Counted from the first letter of the stretch, positions 47,169 through 55,986 are shown. The stretch is 64,000 nucleotides of DNA from Pyrobaculum oguniense TE7 (GCA_000247545.1 CP003316.1:1149233-1213232); one strand, 5' to 3'. Translations and numbers: made by a program. The notes: a model not told the origin generated them from the sequence alone.

Positions 47169-47844
47169 TTATATTACCTCGGCGAGTTCTTTAGCCTCTT
47201 CTCTGCTCTCTAGCTGGGGGACTGGGTCAACGTCTATTACGTAGAATTTTCCTCCGTAGTCGCCTATGGTCAACTTGCCGTAGAGCAGACCTAGATATCT
47301 CAAGACGTCTGCTACAATCCCCGTGGCGTTTTTCGCCGTGGCGAAGACGGTGACCGTCCTCTCCGGTTTAGGTATTACTATAGATACTTTTGAGAGAGGT
47401 GTACGCATAAAGGTCCTGTGTTCTAACACGCTTTTGGCTCCCTCAACGCTGGTCACAGGGCCGTCTAGGCCAAGTCTCCACGCTGTTAGCAACATCCAAG
47501 GCCTTTCTAGTTCTACCTTTTCCACCGAGGTGTCTGACGACAAGACGGCGTAAGGCGGGCCGAATTTAGGGAGCCACATTAGGCGGTTCACCGCCGCGTA
47601 TATGGCCCCGGGGGGATTTATGCTCCTCTCCGCAATTTGGCCATACGCAATCGCGGCGTATGGGTTGCTAATTCTGAGCACCGCGGTGCCTTTTATGCTG
47701 AACAAGACTGTCTCTGTGACGTTTACAAGTTGGGGTTTATAACCTCTCGATGCTACTGCCTCTACAAGCGCCTTGTCGAAGACTGTGGGGCTGTCTGTGA
47801 GGATGTAGATCGCCCCGGTTTCCCCTCTGGCCCCAGACTCATAG
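47169..47844 (-). CDS. Unknown paired-family protein, intact copy, with out-of-frame start
   Basis: The open frame from TTG 47705 gives 178 residues, but the same frame is coding-like further upstream: GARGETGAIYILTDSP and VFDKALVEAVASRGYKPQLV. The decayed copy at 55.5-56.2 kb keeps similar residues there (GARGGNDEIFILTSIP; FNKLLLDAIAAGG), which argues that this part is translated. The upstream part has no in-frame start. ATG 47844 lies where the TATA-like sequence predicts transcription to begin but is in another phase; one extra G in the G4 tract at 47833-47836 would join it. The joined product would have about 225 residues. It contains IYAAVNRLMWLPKFGPPYAV and ends in KFYVIDVDPV. No family is recognised. 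Confidence 0.55.
47404..47671. repeat. 268-bp identical direct repeat, left copy
   Basis: Every base matches 55719-55986, while the sequences on both sides of the tract are clearly diverged. It lies inside the unknown paired-family gene. This pattern is typical of recent gene conversion. Confidence 0.95.
47821..47844 (-). repeat. 24-bp start-region repeat, copy 2
   Basis: ATGAGTCTGGGGCCAGAGGG followed by GAAA, one mismatch from copy 1. A TATA-like TTAAATAA (47863-47870) is centred 22-23 nt upstream, with a second box GTTTATATAAAAG at 47873-47885. The G4 tract at 47833-47836 separates the ATG phase from the conserved family phase. Confidence 0.75.
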
Positions 47845-48038: not shown

Positions 48039-49214
48039 CTAAGGCGGCAGGTCGCCGCAAGCCACCACCGGAGGCGGCAAATCGCCTGTAATAGGGATGG
48101 TGTCAAGCGGTTGCACTATCTGCTTAAATATCGTAGCGGCGTCGCCGTTGACGAAGATCACCGTGTGAGGCCACCTCATCGGCGTCTTAAACACCTTTAC
48201 GGTCTCTAAGCTCCCCACATCTATGACGTAGACTCTGCCGCCTAATATGTCGGTGACGTAGACCCGAGAACAGTCTGGGTTTGCGAAGACCCCCCAGGGC
48301 GTCTCTCCCACTTTAAGAATAGCCAAGGGCTTTAGATCGGGCGTACTTAATACGTATACCAGCCCCTCCAGCGGCGAGGTGGCGAATAGCCTCCCCCTAC
48401 ACACGGCCAGTCCGGGGAGGCCCGGCGGTAGAGCCGATGTGGGGTAGAACGCCACCACTCTCCCCCCACCGTCTAGCGAGACGATGTAGGAATGGGCGTG
48501 TACCTCCACTGCCAACATGTAGCCAGGATCTATGGCGTGGCCCTCGCCGTATATGTATTTGCCGTCTGTGGTAATCATGTGGAAGGAGAGCCAAGTATAG
48601 CGCAGTGGGTCGTGGGGATTCACATAGGGCCTCCAAGGCATCTCCACGCGGACCCGAACCGTCACGCCTCCGCCGTCAAGCTTCACTAGGTAGGGCTCCC
48701 GGATGAGGGGAGTCACGATGTAGCCCCCGTACTTCACGGGGGCGTGTGGATATACCCCTACGTCAATGCAATCGGACAAAACTTCTTGTTCAAGGTCAAG
48801 CCGGCATATGTACCCCCTCTTGGCGCTTTGGTTAAACACTGCAATGTACAAGACGTTGCCAGAAAGAGGGGCGACCTCCGGCGTGTAGTAGAGGAAGTGG
48901 CTCACGTTTCCAGGAGCCTTAATCGCAGTTGCCGGCTTACTTAAATCTGGGAGGTGATATATCAAAATCCAGCGCCCTACCTCAGCCGTGGTGACAACCA
49001 GCTTGTCCCCCCACAAAAAGGCGTCATACATAGTATAGCCGGGCCAGGCATCGCCCAGTGGGGTAGCCCCTACATACTGTCCGTTTTCATACAAGGCTAG
49101 GCCCGGAGGCCCTCCTCCGACGACTATAAAAGTGTCTTCCGGAGGCTGGCTCTGCGCAACGAATAACAGAATTAGGGGGAGGAAAAGGAGAGGGAAAAAA
49201 TATTTTTTAGACAC
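48039..49214 (-). CDS. Exported beta-propeller (YVTN-type) protein
   Basis: A 391-residue secreted protein. The signal peptide is KKYFFPLLFLPLILLFVAQS (residues 3-22). The rest is made of repeated four-strand blades, with YVTN-like motifs (ATSPLEGLVYVLSTPDLKPL near 278, then SRVYVTDILGGRVYVIDVGS near 325, and WPHTVIFVNGD). Such propellers commonly bind partners, redox proteins or ligands outside the membrane. It overlaps the YeeE-type transporter by 8 nt and is last in that operon. It is one of three propeller proteins in the sulfur module. Confidence 0.75.
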   Translation of the reverse strand: MSKKYFFPLLFLPLILLFVAQSQPPEDTFIVVGGGPPGLALYENGQYVGATPLGDAWPGYTMYDAFLWGDKLVVTTAEVGRWILIYHLPDLSKPATAIKAPGNVSHFLYYTPEVAPLSGNVLYIAVFNQSAKRGYICRLDLEQEVLSDCIDVGVYPHAPVKYGGYIVTPLIREPYLVKLDGGGVTVRVRVEMPWRPYVNPHDPLRYTWLSFHMITTDGKYIYGEGHAIDPGYMLAVEVHAHSYIVSLDGGGRVVAFYPTSALPPGLPGLAVCRGRLFATSPLEGLVYVLSTPDLKPLAILKVGETPWGVFANPDCSRVYVTDILGGRVYVIDVGSLETVKVFKTPMRWPHTVIFVNGDAATIFKQIVQPLDTIPITGDLPPPVVACGDLPP

Positions 49215-50463
49215 GGCGAAGGAACGGCGGCTTTATGCTGATTTGTATTGGCATATGCGTGGCGAATCTTCTCAAGGAACCGTCGCGCCAGCTCCCCACC
49301 AACGCTATGAAGGCGCAGAGGCCGTAGGCGAAGGCGGCCCCGGCGGCTACGTTTCCGCCGAAGAGGTCGTAAATTCTCAATACTGGGGTTAGGTATATCG
49401 ATGTGGTGAAGAAGAAAGGCCAGAGATAGGATAAAAGAGCCATGCCGAAGACCATGCCGAACCACGCAATGAGGTGAGGGATGCTACCCTCCCCGCTTCT
49501 ATACGCGCTACTGAAACTACACCCAGCTACCAGCGTCATGCCAACGCCGAATAACACCCCTCCCAGGAAGGTGTGTATGCCCACTGGGAAGAGGAATTCC
49601 CTATACTGCCATCCAATCACGTATTTGGCAACGAGGTTAGCAGTGATCATAATACTGAGCGCAATGGCTATGGCCCTGGCGTTCCCCCCGTAGGGCGCCA
49701 GCCGAGACCAAAAGCCATCTCTCAGCATAGAGGTGAAGCAGATGTTGCCCTTAGATCCCGCAAAGCCGTAGCCCAGGCCGAGGAGGAGGAAGAATATGGC
49801 AGTTATCAAGCCGAGAGCCCACCAGTAGAGGGAGACAACTGCTGTAGCGGCCAGGGCAAGAGCCAGCACCTTGCGGTTGTCCACCCTAGAACCTAGCTCA
49901 ATCCTAAAGGGCTTTGACCTATGCATATAGTGCAGGAGGTAGTCCTCAATTAGGCGTGTAGCTATGAAGGTCCCTACGGCCATCCCCGTGAAGAACACCA
50001 CGCCTGAGAGAATTAGGCTCTGCACCGTGGAGACGAAGTTCCCCACGTTGCAACCCAAGGCCAGCCTCGCCCCGAAGCCCAACATAAGACCGCCCACAAC
50101 CGAGGTTACTAAAACAGCGCGATTAGCCGGCCAGCGGAGCCTCCAGTTGCCCTCAAGCGCCTTGGCTATCATTGCCCCTAGCATAAACCCCAGCACAATC
50201 ATAAACTCCTTATTAGCCGGGTCAAAGGGATGCGCCGCAGGCGCCACGAACATGGGCGACGAGGGGTTGAAATAATCCCACTTATGGACGTCCACGAGGC
50301 CCAAGGTGAGGACGTAGAGGAGCCACCCCCCGAACTGATTCTCCGGGCCGGTGATGTACCAGGGGGATCTCACAAGGAATATCTGTATAGAGGCTATTAT
50401 CCCAATTATAGCCCCCGCCAGCTCTGGGCGCCAGGGTTTTTTCAGGAAATCCAGCGCGGTCAT
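49207..50463 (-). CDS. YeeE/YedE-family sulfur-compound transporter
   Basis: A membrane protein of 418 residues with about ten hydrophobic segments. The two hallmark Cys motifs are LALGCNVGNFVSTV near 137 and VAGCSFSSAYRSGEGS near 318, and a third is GNICFTSMLRDGFW near 240. YeeE proteins carry thiosulfate across the membrane through these cysteines, and YedE relatives are linked to selenium or sulfur handling. ATG 50463 lies one base after the stop of the preceding gene and is preferred over the earlier frame opening at 50514. The TusA gene is in the divergent operon, and YeeE-TusA pairing is common in bacteria. Confidence 0.85.
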   Translation of the reverse strand: MTALDFLKKPWRPELAGAIIGIIASIQIFLVRSPWYITGPENQFGGWLLYVLTLGLVDVHKWDYFNPSSPMFVAPAAHPFDPANKEFMIVLGFMLGAMIAKALEGNWRLRWPANRAVLVTSVVGGLMLGFGARLALGCNVGNFVSTVQSLILSGVVFFTGMAVGTFIATRLIEDYLLHYMHRSKPFRIELGSRVDNRKVLALALAATAVVSLYWWALGLITAIFFLLLGLGYGFAGSKGNICFTSMLRDGFWSRLAPYGGNARAIAIALSIMITANLVAKYVIGWQYREFLFPVGIHTFLGGVLFGVGMTLVAGCSFSSAYRSGEGSIPHLIAWFGMVFGMALLSYLWPFFFTTSIYLTPVLRIYDLFGGNVAAGAAFAYGLCAFIALVGSWRDGSLRRFATHMPIQISIKPPFLRRV

Positions 50464-50464
50464 A

Positions 50465-51493
50465 TCAACCCCCGCATGCGAGGGCAATTTGTCTACCTCC
50501 CGCCGCCACGGCAACGCCCGAGGCCCCTGACCTCACCACTACATCGTCAAGAGACAGCTCTACGACGTGGTGGGATAGGGAAGGCACCATCACCACATGC
50601 GTTTCATCATTTCCCAAGACATATACAATGCTACAAGAGGGGTCATGTCTCATTCTAATACCGCTTACCTCTACCGTTTTTATGAACTGCAGATCAGGCA
50701 CCTTATACGCCTTGATTCCACCATCAGTGAGCACTAGGAAGATTCCCCTACACGCGAACATCTCCTTTACTCCGCCACCGATAGTGACAGAGGCAATTGT
50801 CCTGCCGGTATTTCTATAATAAGACGTCAACCGCTCCCCGTCCCATACAAAGAAGTAATAGGCGCCGACAAATAGCTTCATACCGCTAACGCTGAATTTT
50901 TCCACCTCAGCAAGCTGGGCGTTAAGCACGAGTAGCCCATTAGGCGTCAGTACGTACAACAAAGGCGCCTCTTCCTTGAGCATATATGCGTCGTGTATAT
51001 TTACATTAACCTCCTTTTCTAATACAAAATCCGGCAATTGATACACGGCGACCCCCTTCTGGCTTATTACATAAGCCTTGCCGCCGTGGAGATACCCCTT
51101 TAACAATCCCTCCACGTAGATCCTACTAACCCGCTCTCCCGTTGTCTTATAAAGATATAGATATTCACCACTTTTAACAAGATAGTATTCAGTATTGTAG
51201 TCCAACACCTCCAGTGGCTCTTTTAAGTCGAAGGCCGCGACAGATATAGGGGAGCCCATCGGCGTGGCCAACAACATCTGCCCCGGCTTGAAACCCACGA
51301 TATAGGCGTCCGGCGGCGGAGGTTGCGCTGAGCTCAACAAGTTGTAGGCGTATTGCAGAGTTGCGGTATTTACGTAGTACCCCACTGCAATGCCTATCAC
51401 AAGGCCGATGGCAATTCCTAGCAACAAGCCACCAATCCCCTTCTTCCCTCCCTTGATTGACACAGGTTCTTCTAGTTGGATTTCTTCGCCCAT
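50465..51493 (-). CDS. Membrane-anchored beta-propeller protein
   Basis: A 342-residue protein. After a short cytoplasmic head (GEEIQLEEPVSIKGGKKG) comes one Gly-rich membrane helix (IGGLLLGIAIGLVIGIAVGY), a Pro-rich linker (SSAQPPPPDAYIVG) and an extracellular propeller of repeating beta blades. The frame is open to 51604, but ATG 51493 starts the sensible N-terminus and faces the divergent promoter. First gene of the three-gene leftward operon with YeeE. Three Cys near the end (FACRGIF, DPSCSIVY, ALACGG) may form disulfides. No enzymatic motif is seen. Confidence 0.72.
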   Translation of the reverse strand: MGEEIQLEEPVSIKGGKKGIGGLLLGIAIGLVIGIAVGYYVNTATLQYAYNLLSSAQPPPPDAYIVGFKPGQMLLATPMGSPISVAAFDLKEPLEVLDYNTEYYLVKSGEYLYLYKTTGERVSRIYVEGLLKGYLHGGKAYVISQKGVAVYQLPDFVLEKEVNVNIHDAYMLKEEAPLLYVLTPNGLLVLNAQLAEVEKFSVSGMKLFVGAYYFFVWDGERLTSYYRNTGRTIASVTIGGGVKEMFACRGIFLVLTDGGIKAYKVPDLQFIKTVEVSGIRMRHDPSCSIVYVLGNDETHVVMVPSLSHHVVELSLDDVVVRSGASGVAVAAGGRQIALACGG

Positions 51494-51602
51494 GTATCTA
51501 TTCTTTTCTAAATTAATGTTTTTTATTACCGATATGCCCAAGAATATTCTTCTCAATTTCACTGATAATAACTTTTTAAAATATTTGTGTGTGCAAAAAC
51601 AC
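51494..51602. promoter_or_regulatory. Divergent promoter of the sulfur module
   Basis: A 109-bp A/T-rich gap feeds two divergent operons. The rightward TATA box TTTTAAAATAT (51574-51584) is centred about 24 nt before the tusA ATG, and a leftward TTCTAAATTAAT-like region lies near 51506-51517. Sharing of one control region supports coordinated expression of all eight genes. Confidence 0.5.
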
Positions 51603-51848
51603 ATGCCAAGTATTAAAAAGGTAGGTGATGGAATTTATGAGCTGGATTTGAAGGGCTATGTCTGCCCCTACCCCCAGATGTATACTGCCCAAGCTCTTAA
51701 AAAGCTCTCTAAGGGCGTGAAGTTGAAAGTTGTTATAGACAACCCGCCTTCTATAGAAAATATCAAAAACCTTGCCCAGAAAGAGGGTGTTAAGATAGCC
51801 TCAATTGAGGCAAAGGGAGGCACATGGGAGATACTCCTTGAACTATGA
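51603..51848 (+). CDS. tusA: TusA-family sulfur carrier protein
   Basis: An 81-residue TusA/SirA-fold protein. The persulfide-carrying motif is CPYP in LKGYVCPYPQMYTAQAL near residues 18-34. TusA passes sulfane sulfur between enzymes. The ATG at 51603 is fixed by the TATA box at 51574-51584. It overlaps the DsrE-family gene by 4 nt, and TusA-DsrE pairs are typical of archaeal and bacterial sulfur-trafficking operons. Confidence 0.88.
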   Translation: MPSIKKVGDGIYELDLKGYVCPYPQMYTAQALKKLSKGVKLKVVIDNPPSIENIKNLAQKEGVKIASIEAKGGTWEILLEL

Positions 51849-52216
51849 AAATTGGAGTGATCCTAACAACAGACGACCCCGAGCGGCTTTACGTGGCGGG
51901 CACTTACATCGCCACCGAGCTGGCTAGGGGAAACGAAGTGGTGGTATTCATAACCGGAAGGGCAACCCTGGCCTTCTCCAAGCGCGGTAAGTCTGAGGAG
52001 TCCGAACCTATTAAAAAAATGAGGGAGTTGAAGGTGTATTGGGACGAGCTGTTCAAGGCGGCTAAGCCTATGGGCGTTAAGTGCATAGCCTGTGAAACAG
52101 CGACAAAGATATTCGGCGTATCTGAGGAGGAGTACGACAAAGAGCTTGTAGACGAGGTGTCATCTATGTACACCTTCCTCGAGGAGGTAGGCGACGGCAG
52201 AGTGGTGGTGATATGA
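51845..52216 (+). CDS. DsrE-family sulfur-relay protein
   Basis: A 123-residue DsrE/DsrF-like protein: GVILTTDDPERLYVAGTYIA at the start, VVVFITGRATLAFS near 35, and two Cys in GVKCIACETATKIFG near 76-90. The second Cys of that motif matches the usual active Cys of DsrE-type proteins. It probably receives or donates persulfide sulfur with the TusA encoded next to it. It overlaps both neighbours by 4 nt. Confidence 0.82.
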   Translation: MKIGVILTTDDPERLYVAGTYIATELARGNEVVVFITGRATLAFSKRGKSEESEPIKKMRELKVYWDELFKAAKPMGVKCIACETATKIFGVSEEEYDKELVDEVSSMYTFLEEVGDGRVVVI

Positions 52217-53532
52217 AGGCGTCAATGATCTTGGCGGTGATCCTGGTGGTAGCCTTGGCGGCGGTGGCCGCGCTTTATTCGCAAGAGGTGCAGAAAGCCA
52301 GCTCTCTTGAACAACAAATTAAGGAATTAGAACAGAAGGTAAAAAGTTACGAAAGTAGATTTTCGGAGCTCTCCAATACTATATCAACATTACAAAATGA
52401 GATAAAAGCAAGAGATCAGCAAATTCAACAACTGCAGGATCAGTTGGCCAAGGCTGCGCAACGGATCCCGGGGCTCATCTACGCGCTGATAAGAGAGGGG
52501 AGGGAGCCCTATGTCCTTGTGATAGACCCCAACACTAACAACATAGTTGCCAAGATTGCGCTGAGGTTCACTTTTTCCCCCGAACTGTTTAAGGTAGTAA
52601 ATGCAACTTTATTCAGAGCACCTTCCCCAAGCAGATTTGAGGTGTGGACGCCTAGGTATTGGGTGCCAGATATTCCCTATCTTATATTCCTCTTTGAGCA
52701 TCCTAACGGCTCATTTGTCGCATTTATAGACAGGGCAACGTTTAGAGATGTAGCCGTGATAAAGACATATGAAAAATACACAAGGCAATACGGGGGAATC
52801 ACACCAGACGGCAGATATTTGATAATCTCCCAAAGGCAAGCGCAAAGAGTTGTTTTTATAGACTTAGAAAAAAGGGAGATAATTAAGGTGGTTAATGTTG
52901 ACGCTAATCCATGCGATGCAGCGCCGTCACCAGATGGCAAGTATGTGTTTATACCAGTTAGATCTGACCAAGATCCTAAGAAGCCTGAATATGGATTAGT
53001 ACTCGAGGTGCCTACAGGTAGGGAGGTGGCGAGGTATTACTTCAAAAAGCCCGGCGAGGAGACCTATACAGAGCCATCAATGACGTATTGGAGCTATTAC
53101 AAGCCTGAATATGGCATACTCCAAGGCGAGGCCCGGCCTTATGAGGCTGTGTTTAAGTTTGACTTAGCGGGTGGAAAGATAGATCTAATCAAAGAGGTGA
53201 GCTACCCCTCTACTCCGTACATGGCTATTGAGAATCCGGCGAGGGAGGAAGTGGCCGTTGTGGTATATGAATTCGGCATATATGTGAGATCCTTACCACC
53301 CGAGTATCGAGTATTAAAAGAAGTAAAGCTCGTACCTGATTATGTAAAGGCTACAGAACAAGGCACATATTCGCAAGATGGGCGCTACTTTTATTTAGCG
53401 GGTACAGGAGGCGGAGGCTTAGTCATATTAGATACCTCTACATGGACTGTGGTTAAGCATATAAAAGCCGACGCGGCTGTGTGGGTAATAGCGGTGCCCA
53501 GCGGCGAGTGGCTTAAGCACTGGAAAAAGTGA
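52213..53532 (+). CDS. Exported coiled-coil / beta-propeller protein
   Basis: A 439-residue extracellular protein. The N-terminal membrane anchor (MILAVILVVALAAVAALYS) is followed by about 60 residues of heptad coiled coil rich in Gln (SLEQQIKELEQKVKSYESRF and on to IQQLQDQL). A propeller with blades such as ITPDGRYLIISQRQAQRVVF near 195 and PSPDGKYVFIPVRSDQD near 235 follows. The pattern resembles cytochrome cd1/SoxEF-type or YVTN propellers but lacks a haem motif (no CxxCH). It could form a surface scaffold for sulfur-oxidising partners. Overlaps of 4 nt on both sides. Confidence 0.72.
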   Translation: MKASMILAVILVVALAAVAALYSQEVQKASSLEQQIKELEQKVKSYESRFSELSNTISTLQNEIKARDQQIQQLQDQLAKAAQRIPGLIYALIREGREPYVLVIDPNTNNIVAKIALRFTFSPELFKVVNATLFRAPSPSRFEVWTPRYWVPDIPYLIFLFEHPNGSFVAFIDRATFRDVAVIKTYEKYTRQYGGITPDGRYLIISQRQAQRVVFIDLEKREIIKVVNVDANPCDAAPSPDGKYVFIPVRSDQDPKKPEYGLVLEVPTGREVARYYFKKPGEETYTEPSMTYWSYYKPEYGILQGEARPYEAVFKFDLAGGKIDLIKEVSYPSTPYMAIENPAREEVAVVVYEFGIYVRSLPPEYRVLKEVKLVPDYVKATEQGTYSQDGRYFYLAGTGGGGLVILDTSTWTVVKHIKADAAVWVIAVPSGEWLKHWKK

Positions 53533-54305
53533 GTCCTCTTTTTTCAACCCTGTCTTGTATCTACCTATTTCTCCTCGTTTTTTACATATCTTATAGACTT
53601 TTTAACTTTAGGACAAATCCAATAATATTTGCGGTAGGAGGAGGTGCGCTGGCCCACATGTCCATGATGGCAGGTTCCAACGCCGCCGGCGTCCCCAAGG
53701 AGCTCGCGGTGTTGTGGCCGGTCAACCTCATGCAGTTTTTCCTAGTGGCCGTGGTGATAACTTCCTTTTTCTTCCTTACAATGGCCTACATAGTCACTGG
53801 CCCCCAGCTAAGGGCCAAAACCGCAGACGTCTTGGCGGTGGGTCTTGCCCTCTATGATATCCCCTACGGCTTTTCAGTTGCGTCCGCCCTCTTTGGCGCC
53901 CCGGTGTACTCAAGCACCGCGCCGTGGCTTTTAGCCGCAGGGGTGGCCGTGCTGGCCCTCTCCCAGGCCTATTCACTGGCCGTGGCTAGGGCAATCACGC
54001 CGGGGGGGCTTAGGGCGTGGCTCGTAGTTCCGCTCGCCTTCGCCGTGGGGTTTCTCCTATATTTCATACTGCCGCCTATGCAGACCTCGCTATATCCGAG
54101 GCTTGTGATGTCGTATTTATACGCAGGAGCAGCTCCCTGTATTGTATACAGCATGTTGAAGATCAACCTACACGCCGCCGGGCGGCTGGGGGGTTTCACC
54201 TTTAAGTTCTGGGCTGGGCTCTTTGCGGGAGTTATGCTATACGCAGCCGCAGAGGTGTTCATTCACCTCTACAGCCCAGCGGCCCACGGTTTTATACATT
54301 TATGA
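53529..54305 (+). CDS. Polytopic membrane protein of the sulfur module
   Basis: A 258-residue protein with seven or so hydrophobic helices, beginning with GTG 53529 inside an overlap with the propeller gene. His and Met residues near membrane borders (ALAHMSMMAGSN near 41-52; a C-terminal HLYSPAAHGFIHL) could bind haem or metal, as in quinone-linked membrane subunits, but no family is recognised. Its genomic coupling to the FAD oxidoreductase that follows (4-nt overlap) suggests it anchors that enzyme or passes electrons to the quinone pool. Confidence 0.6.
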   Translation: MSPLFSTLSCIYLFLLVFYISYRLFNFRTNPIIFAVGGGALAHMSMMAGSNAAGVPKELAVLWPVNLMQFFLVAVVITSFFFLTMAYIVTGPQLRAKTADVLAVGLALYDIPYGFSVASALFGAPVYSSTAPWLLAAGVAVLALSQAYSLAVARAITPGGLRAWLVVPLAFAVGFLLYFILPPMQTSLYPRLVMSYLYAGAAPCIVYSMLKINLHAAGRLGGFTFKFWAGLFAGVMLYAAAEVFIHLYSPAAHGFIHL

Positions 54306-55498
54306 AAAGGCGGGAGTTCCTCGCGACAGTCCTCGCCGGCGGGGCGGCGGGGTTTTTGATATACAGTCTGGCCCATGGGCAGAGGGCTGTTAGCCGAAAA
54401 ACTGTCTTAAAGGCAGACGTGGTCGTAGTCGGCGGGGGCGTTGCCGGGTCGACAGTGGCTAGGCTAGTCTCGCCCCACTTGCGGACAGTGGTGGTTGAGC
54501 CCAGGGGGCTATATCTGGTAGGCCCCGCCAAGGAAGACATCACGCTGGGCTTAGCTGGGGTGGAGGACTACGCCGCGGTTAGGAGAGGCGTTTTCAGGGC
54601 GGCAGCCGTGGGCCTCGACCCGGGAAATAGGCTTTTATACACTACCGCAGGGCTAGTGGAGTACAGGTACTTGGTCTTGGCGGTGGGGGTGAGGCTGGCC
54701 TATGAGGAGGCGGAAGTGACGGGGCGGCCCGACTTTGTAAACATATACGACGACGACTCGGTGCTGGGACACGCGGGGTTTTTAAAAAGGGCAAGGGGGA
54801 GGATAGTCATCGCGCACCCCGGACTCCCCTACAGGTGCACCTCGGCTCCCTACGAGTTGGCCTTCTTGGCTGACTACATCGCGCCGCGCCCCCATGACAT
54901 AGTGGTGATCTCCGGCGTAAAGGGCATCCCAGCCGAGTTTCAGGAGCAGATCTCCCAGCTGGGAGGCTTGGTGAATAGGCTCATGGAGGAGAGGGGGATA
55001 GGCCTTGTGGCCGGGGCCGAGGTGGTGGAGGTGGGCGAGGGCCGCGTGTTGCTGGACAACGGGGAGGCGGTGAAATACGACGTTTTGATCTGGACCCCGC
55101 CCCACAGGGGCTGGCCCTGGCTGGTGGAGGCGGGGGTGGCAAGGGAGTCGGAGTACGGATATGTGAGGGTTGATGACCGGTTTAGAACCCGCTGGGATGA
55201 CGTATACGCAGTGGGGGATGTGGTGTGGCATGTGGTGAAGACTGGATGGGCGGCGTATTACGAGGCTTTGGCTACCGCGGCTTATATACTGGAGGACGCG
55301 GGCTTCCCATCCACAGGCCCCGAATACTTGTACAGCGAGGATTCAATTAGGTTAGAGCCCCGGCTGGCGATAAGAGGCGCGAAGAGATGGTGGCCCATAT
55401 ACGGCAAGGTGGCGTGGCGCCAAATAGACGGGCCCAGCGAGGAGGCCGCTGAGGGGAAATACGCGTGGATGCGGGCTATGAGGGATTTAATCTATTAG
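54302..55498 (+). CDS. Tat-exported FAD oxidoreductase (sulfide dehydrogenase FccB / SQR-like)
   Basis: A 398-residue flavoprotein. The twin-arginine signal KRREFLATVLAGGAAGF is at 2-18, the first dinucleotide fold ADVVVVGGGVAGSTVARLV near 38-56, and the second FAD contact VYAVGDVVWHV near 308. PYRCTSAPYELAFLADYI near 178 is similar to the FccB/SQR region that holds a redox Cys. The second Cys expected for SQR chemistry is not evident: Cys181 appears to be the only one in the domain. It probably oxidises a sulfur compound on the outer face of the membrane. Last gene of the tusA operon; its end overlaps a pseudogene on the other strand. Confidence 0.78.
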   Translation: MKRREFLATVLAGGAAGFLIYSLAHGQRAVSRKTVLKADVVVVGGGVAGSTVARLVSPHLRTVVVEPRGLYLVGPAKEDITLGLAGVEDYAAVRRGVFRAAAVGLDPGNRLLYTTAGLVEYRYLVLAVGVRLAYEEAEVTGRPDFVNIYDDDSVLGHAGFLKRARGRIVIAHPGLPYRCTSAPYELAFLADYIAPRPHDIVVISGVKGIPAEFQEQISQLGGLVNRLMEERGIGLVAGAEVVEVGEGRVLLDNGEAVKYDVLIWTPPHRGWPWLVEAGVARESEYGYVRVDDRFRTRWDDVYAVGDVVWHVVKTGWAAYYEALATAAYILEDAGFPSTGPEYLYSEDSIRLEPRLAIRGAKRWWPIYGKVAWRQIDGPSEEAAEGKYAWMRAMRDLIY

Positions 55499-55718
55499 CT
55501 CCGCCAAGGTGCTTACCTCCTCCTTCCCCTGGTGGACGGGGTCAACGTCTATTACGTACGTCCTGCCCCCATACTAGCCGGGGGGAACCCCGGCGTAGAG
55601 CATGCCTAAGCGCCTCAATACCTCCGCGGCGATGTCCAACGCTGTCTTCACGGTAGCAAACACGGCGGTGGTCAGCTCAGGCCTCGGCATCGCCACAGAC
55701 ACCTTCGTCAAGGGATTG

Positions 55719-55986
55719 CGCATAAAGGTCCTGTGTTCTAACACGCTTTTGGCTCCCTCAACGCTGGTCACAGGGCCGTCTAGGCCAAGTCTCCACGCTG
55801 TTAGCAACATCCAAGGCCTTTCTAGTTCTACCTTTTCCACCGAGGTGTCTGACGACAAGACGGCGTAAGGCGGGCCGAATTTAGGGAGCCACATTAGGCG
55901 GTTCACCGCCGCGTATATGGCCCCGGGGGGATTTATGCTCCTCTCCGCAATTTGGCCATACGCAATCGCGGCGTATGGGTTGCTAA
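55719..55986. repeat. 268-bp identical direct repeat, right copy
   Basis: Identical in every base to 47404-47671 and in the same orientation, 8.3 kb away. The two copies flank the complete sulfur module. Confidence 0.95.

Follow-up and report, generated by a model that had tools for sequence, protein, structure and literature searches.

The genome of Pyrobaculum oguniense TE7 carries, at positions 48039-55498 of the 64,000-nucleotide stretch analysed here (CP003316.1:1149233-1213232; referred to as the window), eight closely packed genes, which raise the question of what a YeeE-type transporter (P2), a TusA-family sulfur carrier (P4) and a DsrE-family protein (P5) do in the company of three propellers (P1, P3 and P6), a polytopic membrane protein (P7) and a flavoprotein (P8). 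A preliminary description of the locus suggested an extracytoplasmic machine for sulfur oxidation or uptake, with the propellers as scaffold and electrons passing from an FccB/SQR-type flavoprotein to quinone through the membrane protein. We report that this interpretation stands in part: the genes form one sulfur-related module with an extracytoplasmic portion, in which the relay cysteines of P2 and the CPxP motif of TusA are kept, while the quinone link, the standard FccB and the role of the propellers as mere scaffold found no support. As judged from sequences and structure models, there is about an even chance that sulfane sulfur or thiosulfate is carried outside the cell on cysteine arms of the propellers and imported through YeeE to TusA and DsrE.

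The gene set itself was confirmed. All eight open reading frames (ORFs) are present without internal stops in two divergent operons, of which the leftward one encodes a secreted propeller (P1), YeeE (P2) and an anchored propeller (P3), and the rightward one TusA (P4), DsrE (P5), a coiled-coil propeller (P6), the polytopic protein (P7) and the flavin adenine dinucleotide (FAD) protein (P8). The junctions measure -8, +1, -4, -4, -4 and -4 nt, and the gap between the operons, a putative promoter region common to both, has the length previously given. Pfam matches bear out the YeeE, TusA, DsrE and flavoprotein assignments (Table 1). For the three propellers the matches are to weak propeller profiles only, yet the structure models of two of them, P1 and P3, are propellers.

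Homologues of all eight genes are clustered within approximately 7.5 kb, and not dispersed, in four further archaeal genomes, G027 (locus L029), G029 (L030), G042 (L031) and G028 (L032); G042 belongs to another genus than the window genome, and all five belong to one order. The set is complete in each, in three different gene orders. L029, L030 and L031 have an operon TusA-DsrE-YeeE-P1 and a divergent operon P3-P6-P7-P8; the window order corresponds to this one after inversion of the segment that separates YeeE from P6, such that P3 and TusA-DsrE exchange operons; and L032 reads P1-P7-P8 / DsrE-TusA / P3-P6-YeeE. Because the composition is kept across genomes and the order is not, the eight genes probably function jointly, and they are a real conserved module and not a chance neighbourhood. 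We sampled 398 Thermoproteota genomes and 45 genomes of the order, both samples including the five with the module. None of the other 393 Thermoproteota genomes had full-length P1 or P3, and close versions of YeeE (P2) and P7 were confined to the five. The order-wide ortholog searches took in P6 and P8 and gave neither full-length P6 nor a close version of P8 in the other 40 of the 45 genomes.

The evidence for carriage on cysteine arms lies in the ends of P3 and P1. Only 70 of 329 ungapped columns of P3 are invariant, yet its ALACGG end is kept in all five sequences. An AlphaFold2 model of P3 (from the five sequences; mean predicted local distance difference test score, pLDDT, 79.8) has an N-terminal helix, four-stranded blades and a disordered tail that bears this end; a Foldseek search with the model confirmed the propeller fold class and returned no specific relative. 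Since Lys/Arg-rich residues precede the transmembrane helix, the propeller should be outside the cell. The last invariant cysteine of P1 likewise sits in a terminal motif, CGD(x)xP, at the low-confidence end of its structure model, and the two proteins have in common a conserved cysteine pair (272/315 in P1, 248/287 in P3) inside a homologous stretch of 66 columns. Such ends are rare: among 556 ORFs of at least 100 amino acids in the retrieved loci, seven have C-G or C-G-G as their last residues; P3 accounts for five, and the remaining two are a pyridine-nucleotide-disulfide oxidoreductase and a 273-amino-acid protein of the window's own genome. The terminal GGCGG cysteine of SoxY, which binds sulfur, is an established swinging-arm precedent (PMC6067878; PMC5336275), and by analogy with it we propose that the terminal cysteine of P3 could hold a covalent sulfur adduct. 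The SoxY domain (PF13501) had no match in the window genome or the other four module genomes; a SoxY profile match above cut-off is present in another genus of the order (L168; G010:C12:3264-3554).

The inner half of the module, channel plus TusA and DsrE carriers, is already known biology, as follows from the relay cysteines of P2, the motifs of P4 and P5 and the thiosulfate response of yeeE in T. maritima. P2 scores 139.3 bits against PF04143 (curated cut-off 27). Its halves are circularly permuted relative to S. thermophila TsuA, residues 226-336 corresponding to TsuA 6-109 and 82-165 to TsuA 237-320, and in the alignment its C242, C315 and C138, all invariant in the five sequences, are equivalent to TsuA C22, C91 and C293. 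The TsuA relay cysteines line a path towards the TusA-type partner YeeD (PMC11073785); TsuA cannot do without C91 and C293, and SoxT requires all three (PMC11582611). Thiosulfate transport is the candidate function of P2, and P4, with an invariant CPYP (CPxP) motif, is a TusA-family protein.

YeeD is an essential partner of YeeE, and in bacteria the two are enough for thiosulfate to be taken up (PMC11073785); the yeeE gene of T. maritima, which shares a unit with dsrE and tusA homologues, responds strongly to thiosulfate (42.6-fold up; PMC9431562). Both observations would suit plain thiosulfate uptake for assimilation or respiration by YeeE, TusA and DsrE, where the propellers serve surface binding or scaffolding and the tail cysteines an anchor or cross-link; the internal cysteine pair common to P1 and P3, which could form a disulfide, is compatible with this as well. 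We regard it as possible but rather unlikely, since it leaves unexplained a flavoprotein of the flavocytochrome-c sulfide dehydrogenase (FCSD) type as well as an invariant terminal CGG in a protein as variable as P3. A role in selenium handling, such as that of YedE and YedF, was suggested by the best NCBIfam matches (YedE/FdhT, 156.3 bits; YedF, 57 bits), but these stay under the curated cut-offs of 350 and 79 bits, DsrE and FCSD-type flavoproteins are sulfur proteins, and SQR-like genes lie close to the module in two relatives (L029 and L031); this makes selenium a very unlikely substrate.

P1 has a further feature that speaks against mere scaffold. Seven blade-equivalent positions, D64, H106, H157, H212, G268, W307 and H350, are in register and invariant, as are six of its nine histidines. 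The register was placed by eye at inner-strand starts, from the sequence and predicted strands and not from coordinates. Four histidines and an aspartate at the propeller mouth would suit a metal site, which we treat as a lead only, and with this invariant His-rich ring P1 may be catalytic. No Pfam family matched P1 up to E = 1, hence there is no SBP56 profile match. In one of the five genomes, G027, a SCO1/SenC copper-chaperone-like gene (L029:13881-14507) overlaps P1 at its 3' end.

In the methanethiol oxidase MTO four conserved histidines are likely copper ligands, and mtoX operons include SCO1/senC (PMC5739008). P1 might accordingly be imagined as the main enzyme of the module, a propeller with copper that acts on thiols or sulfane sulfur in the manner of methanethiol oxidase and is partnered by P8 and P3 for electrons or sulfur; the seven invariant ring positions, the invariant histidines and the SCO1/SenC neighbour would agree with this. 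We nevertheless hold it improbable, given a ring geometry deduced from sequence register, a SCO gene that adjoins P1 in one genome of five, and neither an SBP56 match nor a convincing match to the NosZ families. Specifically, a nitrous-oxide-reductase identity for P1 and P6 (NF052460) was rejected, the matches being weak, limited to blade repeats and far under the 700-bit cut-off. A cluster elsewhere in G029 (L036:2510-15081) contains an SQR-like gene, a ZIP-like gene, two genes of the same cluster as the SCO1/SenC-like one, and a propeller that partly matches the clade III NosZ type (4.5e-20, far under cut-off).

P8 could provide the redox chemistry, in a modified form. Its best relatives in the PDB are flavocytochrome-c sulfide dehydrogenases (5n1t, 9.1e-23; 1fcd, 1e-21), and the homology extends across the FAD domains. 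Of the two redox cysteines the first is retained, in LPYRCTSAPYE; the position of FCSD Cys337 is occupied by Glu346, part of an invariant SED, and P8 has no FAD-linking cysteine. P8 is consequently related to FccB and SQR but is not the standard sulfide-oxidising flavoprotein that had been assumed, and it may operate through a single-cysteine persulfide or mixed disulfide. None of the eight module proteins contains CxxCH, so that no cytochrome c partner stands beside P8. The window genome has a second YeeE operon (L037:7677-10863; G000:C1 ~1506.7-1509.9 kb), in which the 273-amino-acid protein from the census of C-terminal ends (L037:8750-9571, ending KVGTCG) is encoded between YeeE and an FCSD-type flavoprotein that carries a Tat signal and retains both redox cysteines; among 181 genomes this orphan was present in the window genome only. 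In both YeeE operons, then, an FCSD-type flavoprotein is accompanied by an extracytoplasmic protein with a glycine-flanked cysteine at its end, and the scaffolds are unrelated.

P7 had been proposed to link the flavoprotein to quinone. Distant paralogues of P7 in Thermoproteota give weak ZIP/ZupT matches (PF02535, 1.7e-6 at best; NF003243, 2.5e-8) and contain HNxGEG and HNATEG, both lost in all five module copies, and P7 has no recognisable quinone or heme motif; we therefore dropped such a role. The sequence comparison indicates a ZIP-derived protein that has probably lost metal transport. A ZIP-like membrane family with intact HN..E motifs is present in Thermoproteota (L108, L102, L098, L101 and others), under the Pfam cut-off and apparently unnamed. 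That the module handles metal, with P7 and a His-rich extracytoplasmic propeller resembling the zinc chaperone AztD while the sulfur genes supply thiols, is the least probable of the accounts considered: P7 is ZIP-like, and AztD turns up as a weak match of P1 and P3 in sequence and fold comparisons, but the ZIP metal ligands that persist in the paralogues are all missing from P7, and TusA, DsrE, YeeE and the protein of the FCSD type are proteins of sulfur or redox chemistry.

Taken together, carriage on cysteine arms is the best supported reading. An external sulfur species, thiosulfate or sulfane sulfur/polysulfide, would be bound on the C-terminal cysteines of P3 and P1, and P8, perhaps also the P1 metal ring, would load or unload these arms by redox. 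P3 would then present the sulfur to the P2 channel, whose three cysteines would relay it to TusA and DsrE in the cytoplasm, and these could give it to downstream enzymes, whereas P6 and P7 may be parts for assembly, docking or permeation. A separate cluster of the window genome (L033:3243-14517) includes SQR-like, sulfite reductase-like (a Dsr-type pair), TusA and DsrE genes, as well as a SelD-related sulfur protein that carries a fused acylphosphatase domain. P. oguniense uses as acceptors oxygen, or sulfur, thiosulfate, cystine and oxidised glutathione (PMC3558965), and the module could serve oxidation, reduction or assimilation.

Several points weigh against this reading, which builds on sequence and a shallow model. 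Invariance among five sequences is shallow evidence, and the profile alignment of P3 and P1 is limited to the 66 columns. With one redox cysteine lost, an FCSD-like disulfide cycle is impossible in P8, nothing in the module resembles SoxAX, SoxB or cytochrome c, and P6 and P7 have no assigned role.

A 458-bp direct repeat flanks the module (47214-47671 and 55529-55986; 84% identical, each copy inside an unassigned ORF); with just these two copies in the genome, so diverged, a mobile element was rejected. Horizontal transfer between genera, considered because the G042 copies are nearer to those of G027 than the G028 copies are, was likewise discarded, as a ZIP-like paralogue outside the module gives the same pattern (72.5 vs 61.5%).

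Table 1 Features of the module (window coordinates; lengths in amino acids, aa; TM, transmembrane helix)
Feature	Position	Strand	Remarks
P1, secreted 7-bladed propeller, 391 aa	48039..49214	-	five invariant Cys; C-terminal CGD(x)xP
P1 Cys386 codon, candidate C-terminal carrier cysteine	48057..48059	-	in low-confidence tail 384-391
P2, YeeE/TsuA-type transporter, 418 aa	49207..50463	-	PF04143 2.6e-40; relay cysteines C138, C242, C315
P3, membrane-anchored 7-bladed propeller, 342 aa	50465..51493	-	TM 19-37; predicted disordered tail 324-342 ending ALACGG
P3 C-terminal Cys340-Gly-Gly codons, proposed swinging-arm carrier	50468..50476	-	invariant 5/5; terminal-motif census
Divergent intergenic region, putative promoter region common to both operons	51494..51602	.	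109 bp
P4, TusA-family sulfur carrier, 81 aa	51603..51848	+	PF01206 1.3e-19; CPYP motif, Cys21
P5, DsrE-family sulfurtransferase, 123 aa	51845..52216	+	PF02635 2.4e-9; one invariant Cys, Cys83
P6, signal-anchor, coiled coil and propeller, 439 aa	52213..53532	+	single invariant Cys234
P7, polytopic membrane protein, 258 aa, ZIP/ZupT-like relative	53529..54305	+	HNxGEG and HNATEG metal motifs lost
P8, Tat-signal FAD protein, 398 aa, FCSD family	54302..55498	+	PF07992 4.6e-16
P8 Cys179 codon, equivalent of FCSD Cys161	54836..54838	+	alignment to FCSD

How sulfur is handed over from outside to YeeE/SoxT-type channels is poorly understood even in bacteria (PMC11582611), and the module supplies candidate sulfur presenters, equipped with a cysteine arm, from hyperthermophiles that gave no SoxY match. 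We tentatively suggest, at somewhat less than even chances, a SoxYZ-independent archaeal class of carriers, in which YeeE is fed by propellers that have a Cys-Gly-Gly swinging arm at the C-terminus, and in one case a metal ring as well, the KVGTCG protein being a further, convergent carrier. If so, swinging arms evolved on more than one occasion, and a function would be assigned to several uncharacterised propellers as well as to a ZIP protein that has lost its ligands.

As had been surmised, no system of this composition turned up in the open-access literature, within which the outer, propeller half appears to be undescribed; individual parts do resemble known systems. The T. maritima yeeE/dsrE/tusA unit has the same import trio, while propellers, flavoprotein and ZIP-like protein are not reported with it. 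TsuA/TsuB (YeeE/YeeD) likewise combines a channel with three relay cysteines and a cytosolic TusA-family CPxP partner; the module differs in the permuted halves of P2 and in six additional proteins, most of them external or membrane proteins. P8 is similar to FccB, the SoxF flavoprotein and SQR in fold family, first redox cysteine and export, and differs from them in the Glu that replaces the second redox cysteine and in having neither FAD-linking cysteine nor cytochrome c partner. P7 is related to ZupT-like ZIP transporters, but all its metal-binding motifs are lost. Methanethiol oxidase (SBP56) is also a propeller with conserved histidines and a SCO1/SenC neighbour (for the module, in one genome), but P1 has no detectable sequence relation to it and possesses a C-terminal cysteine tail. 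Finally, SoxT/SoxYZ differs in that the module's putative carrier is a propeller, SoxY was not found in the genome, and the module has no SoxAX, SoxB or SoxCD; in both, a YeeE-type channel would be fed from outside by an extracytoplasmic carrier with a C-terminal Gly-flanked cysteine, with TusA as the likely acceptor.

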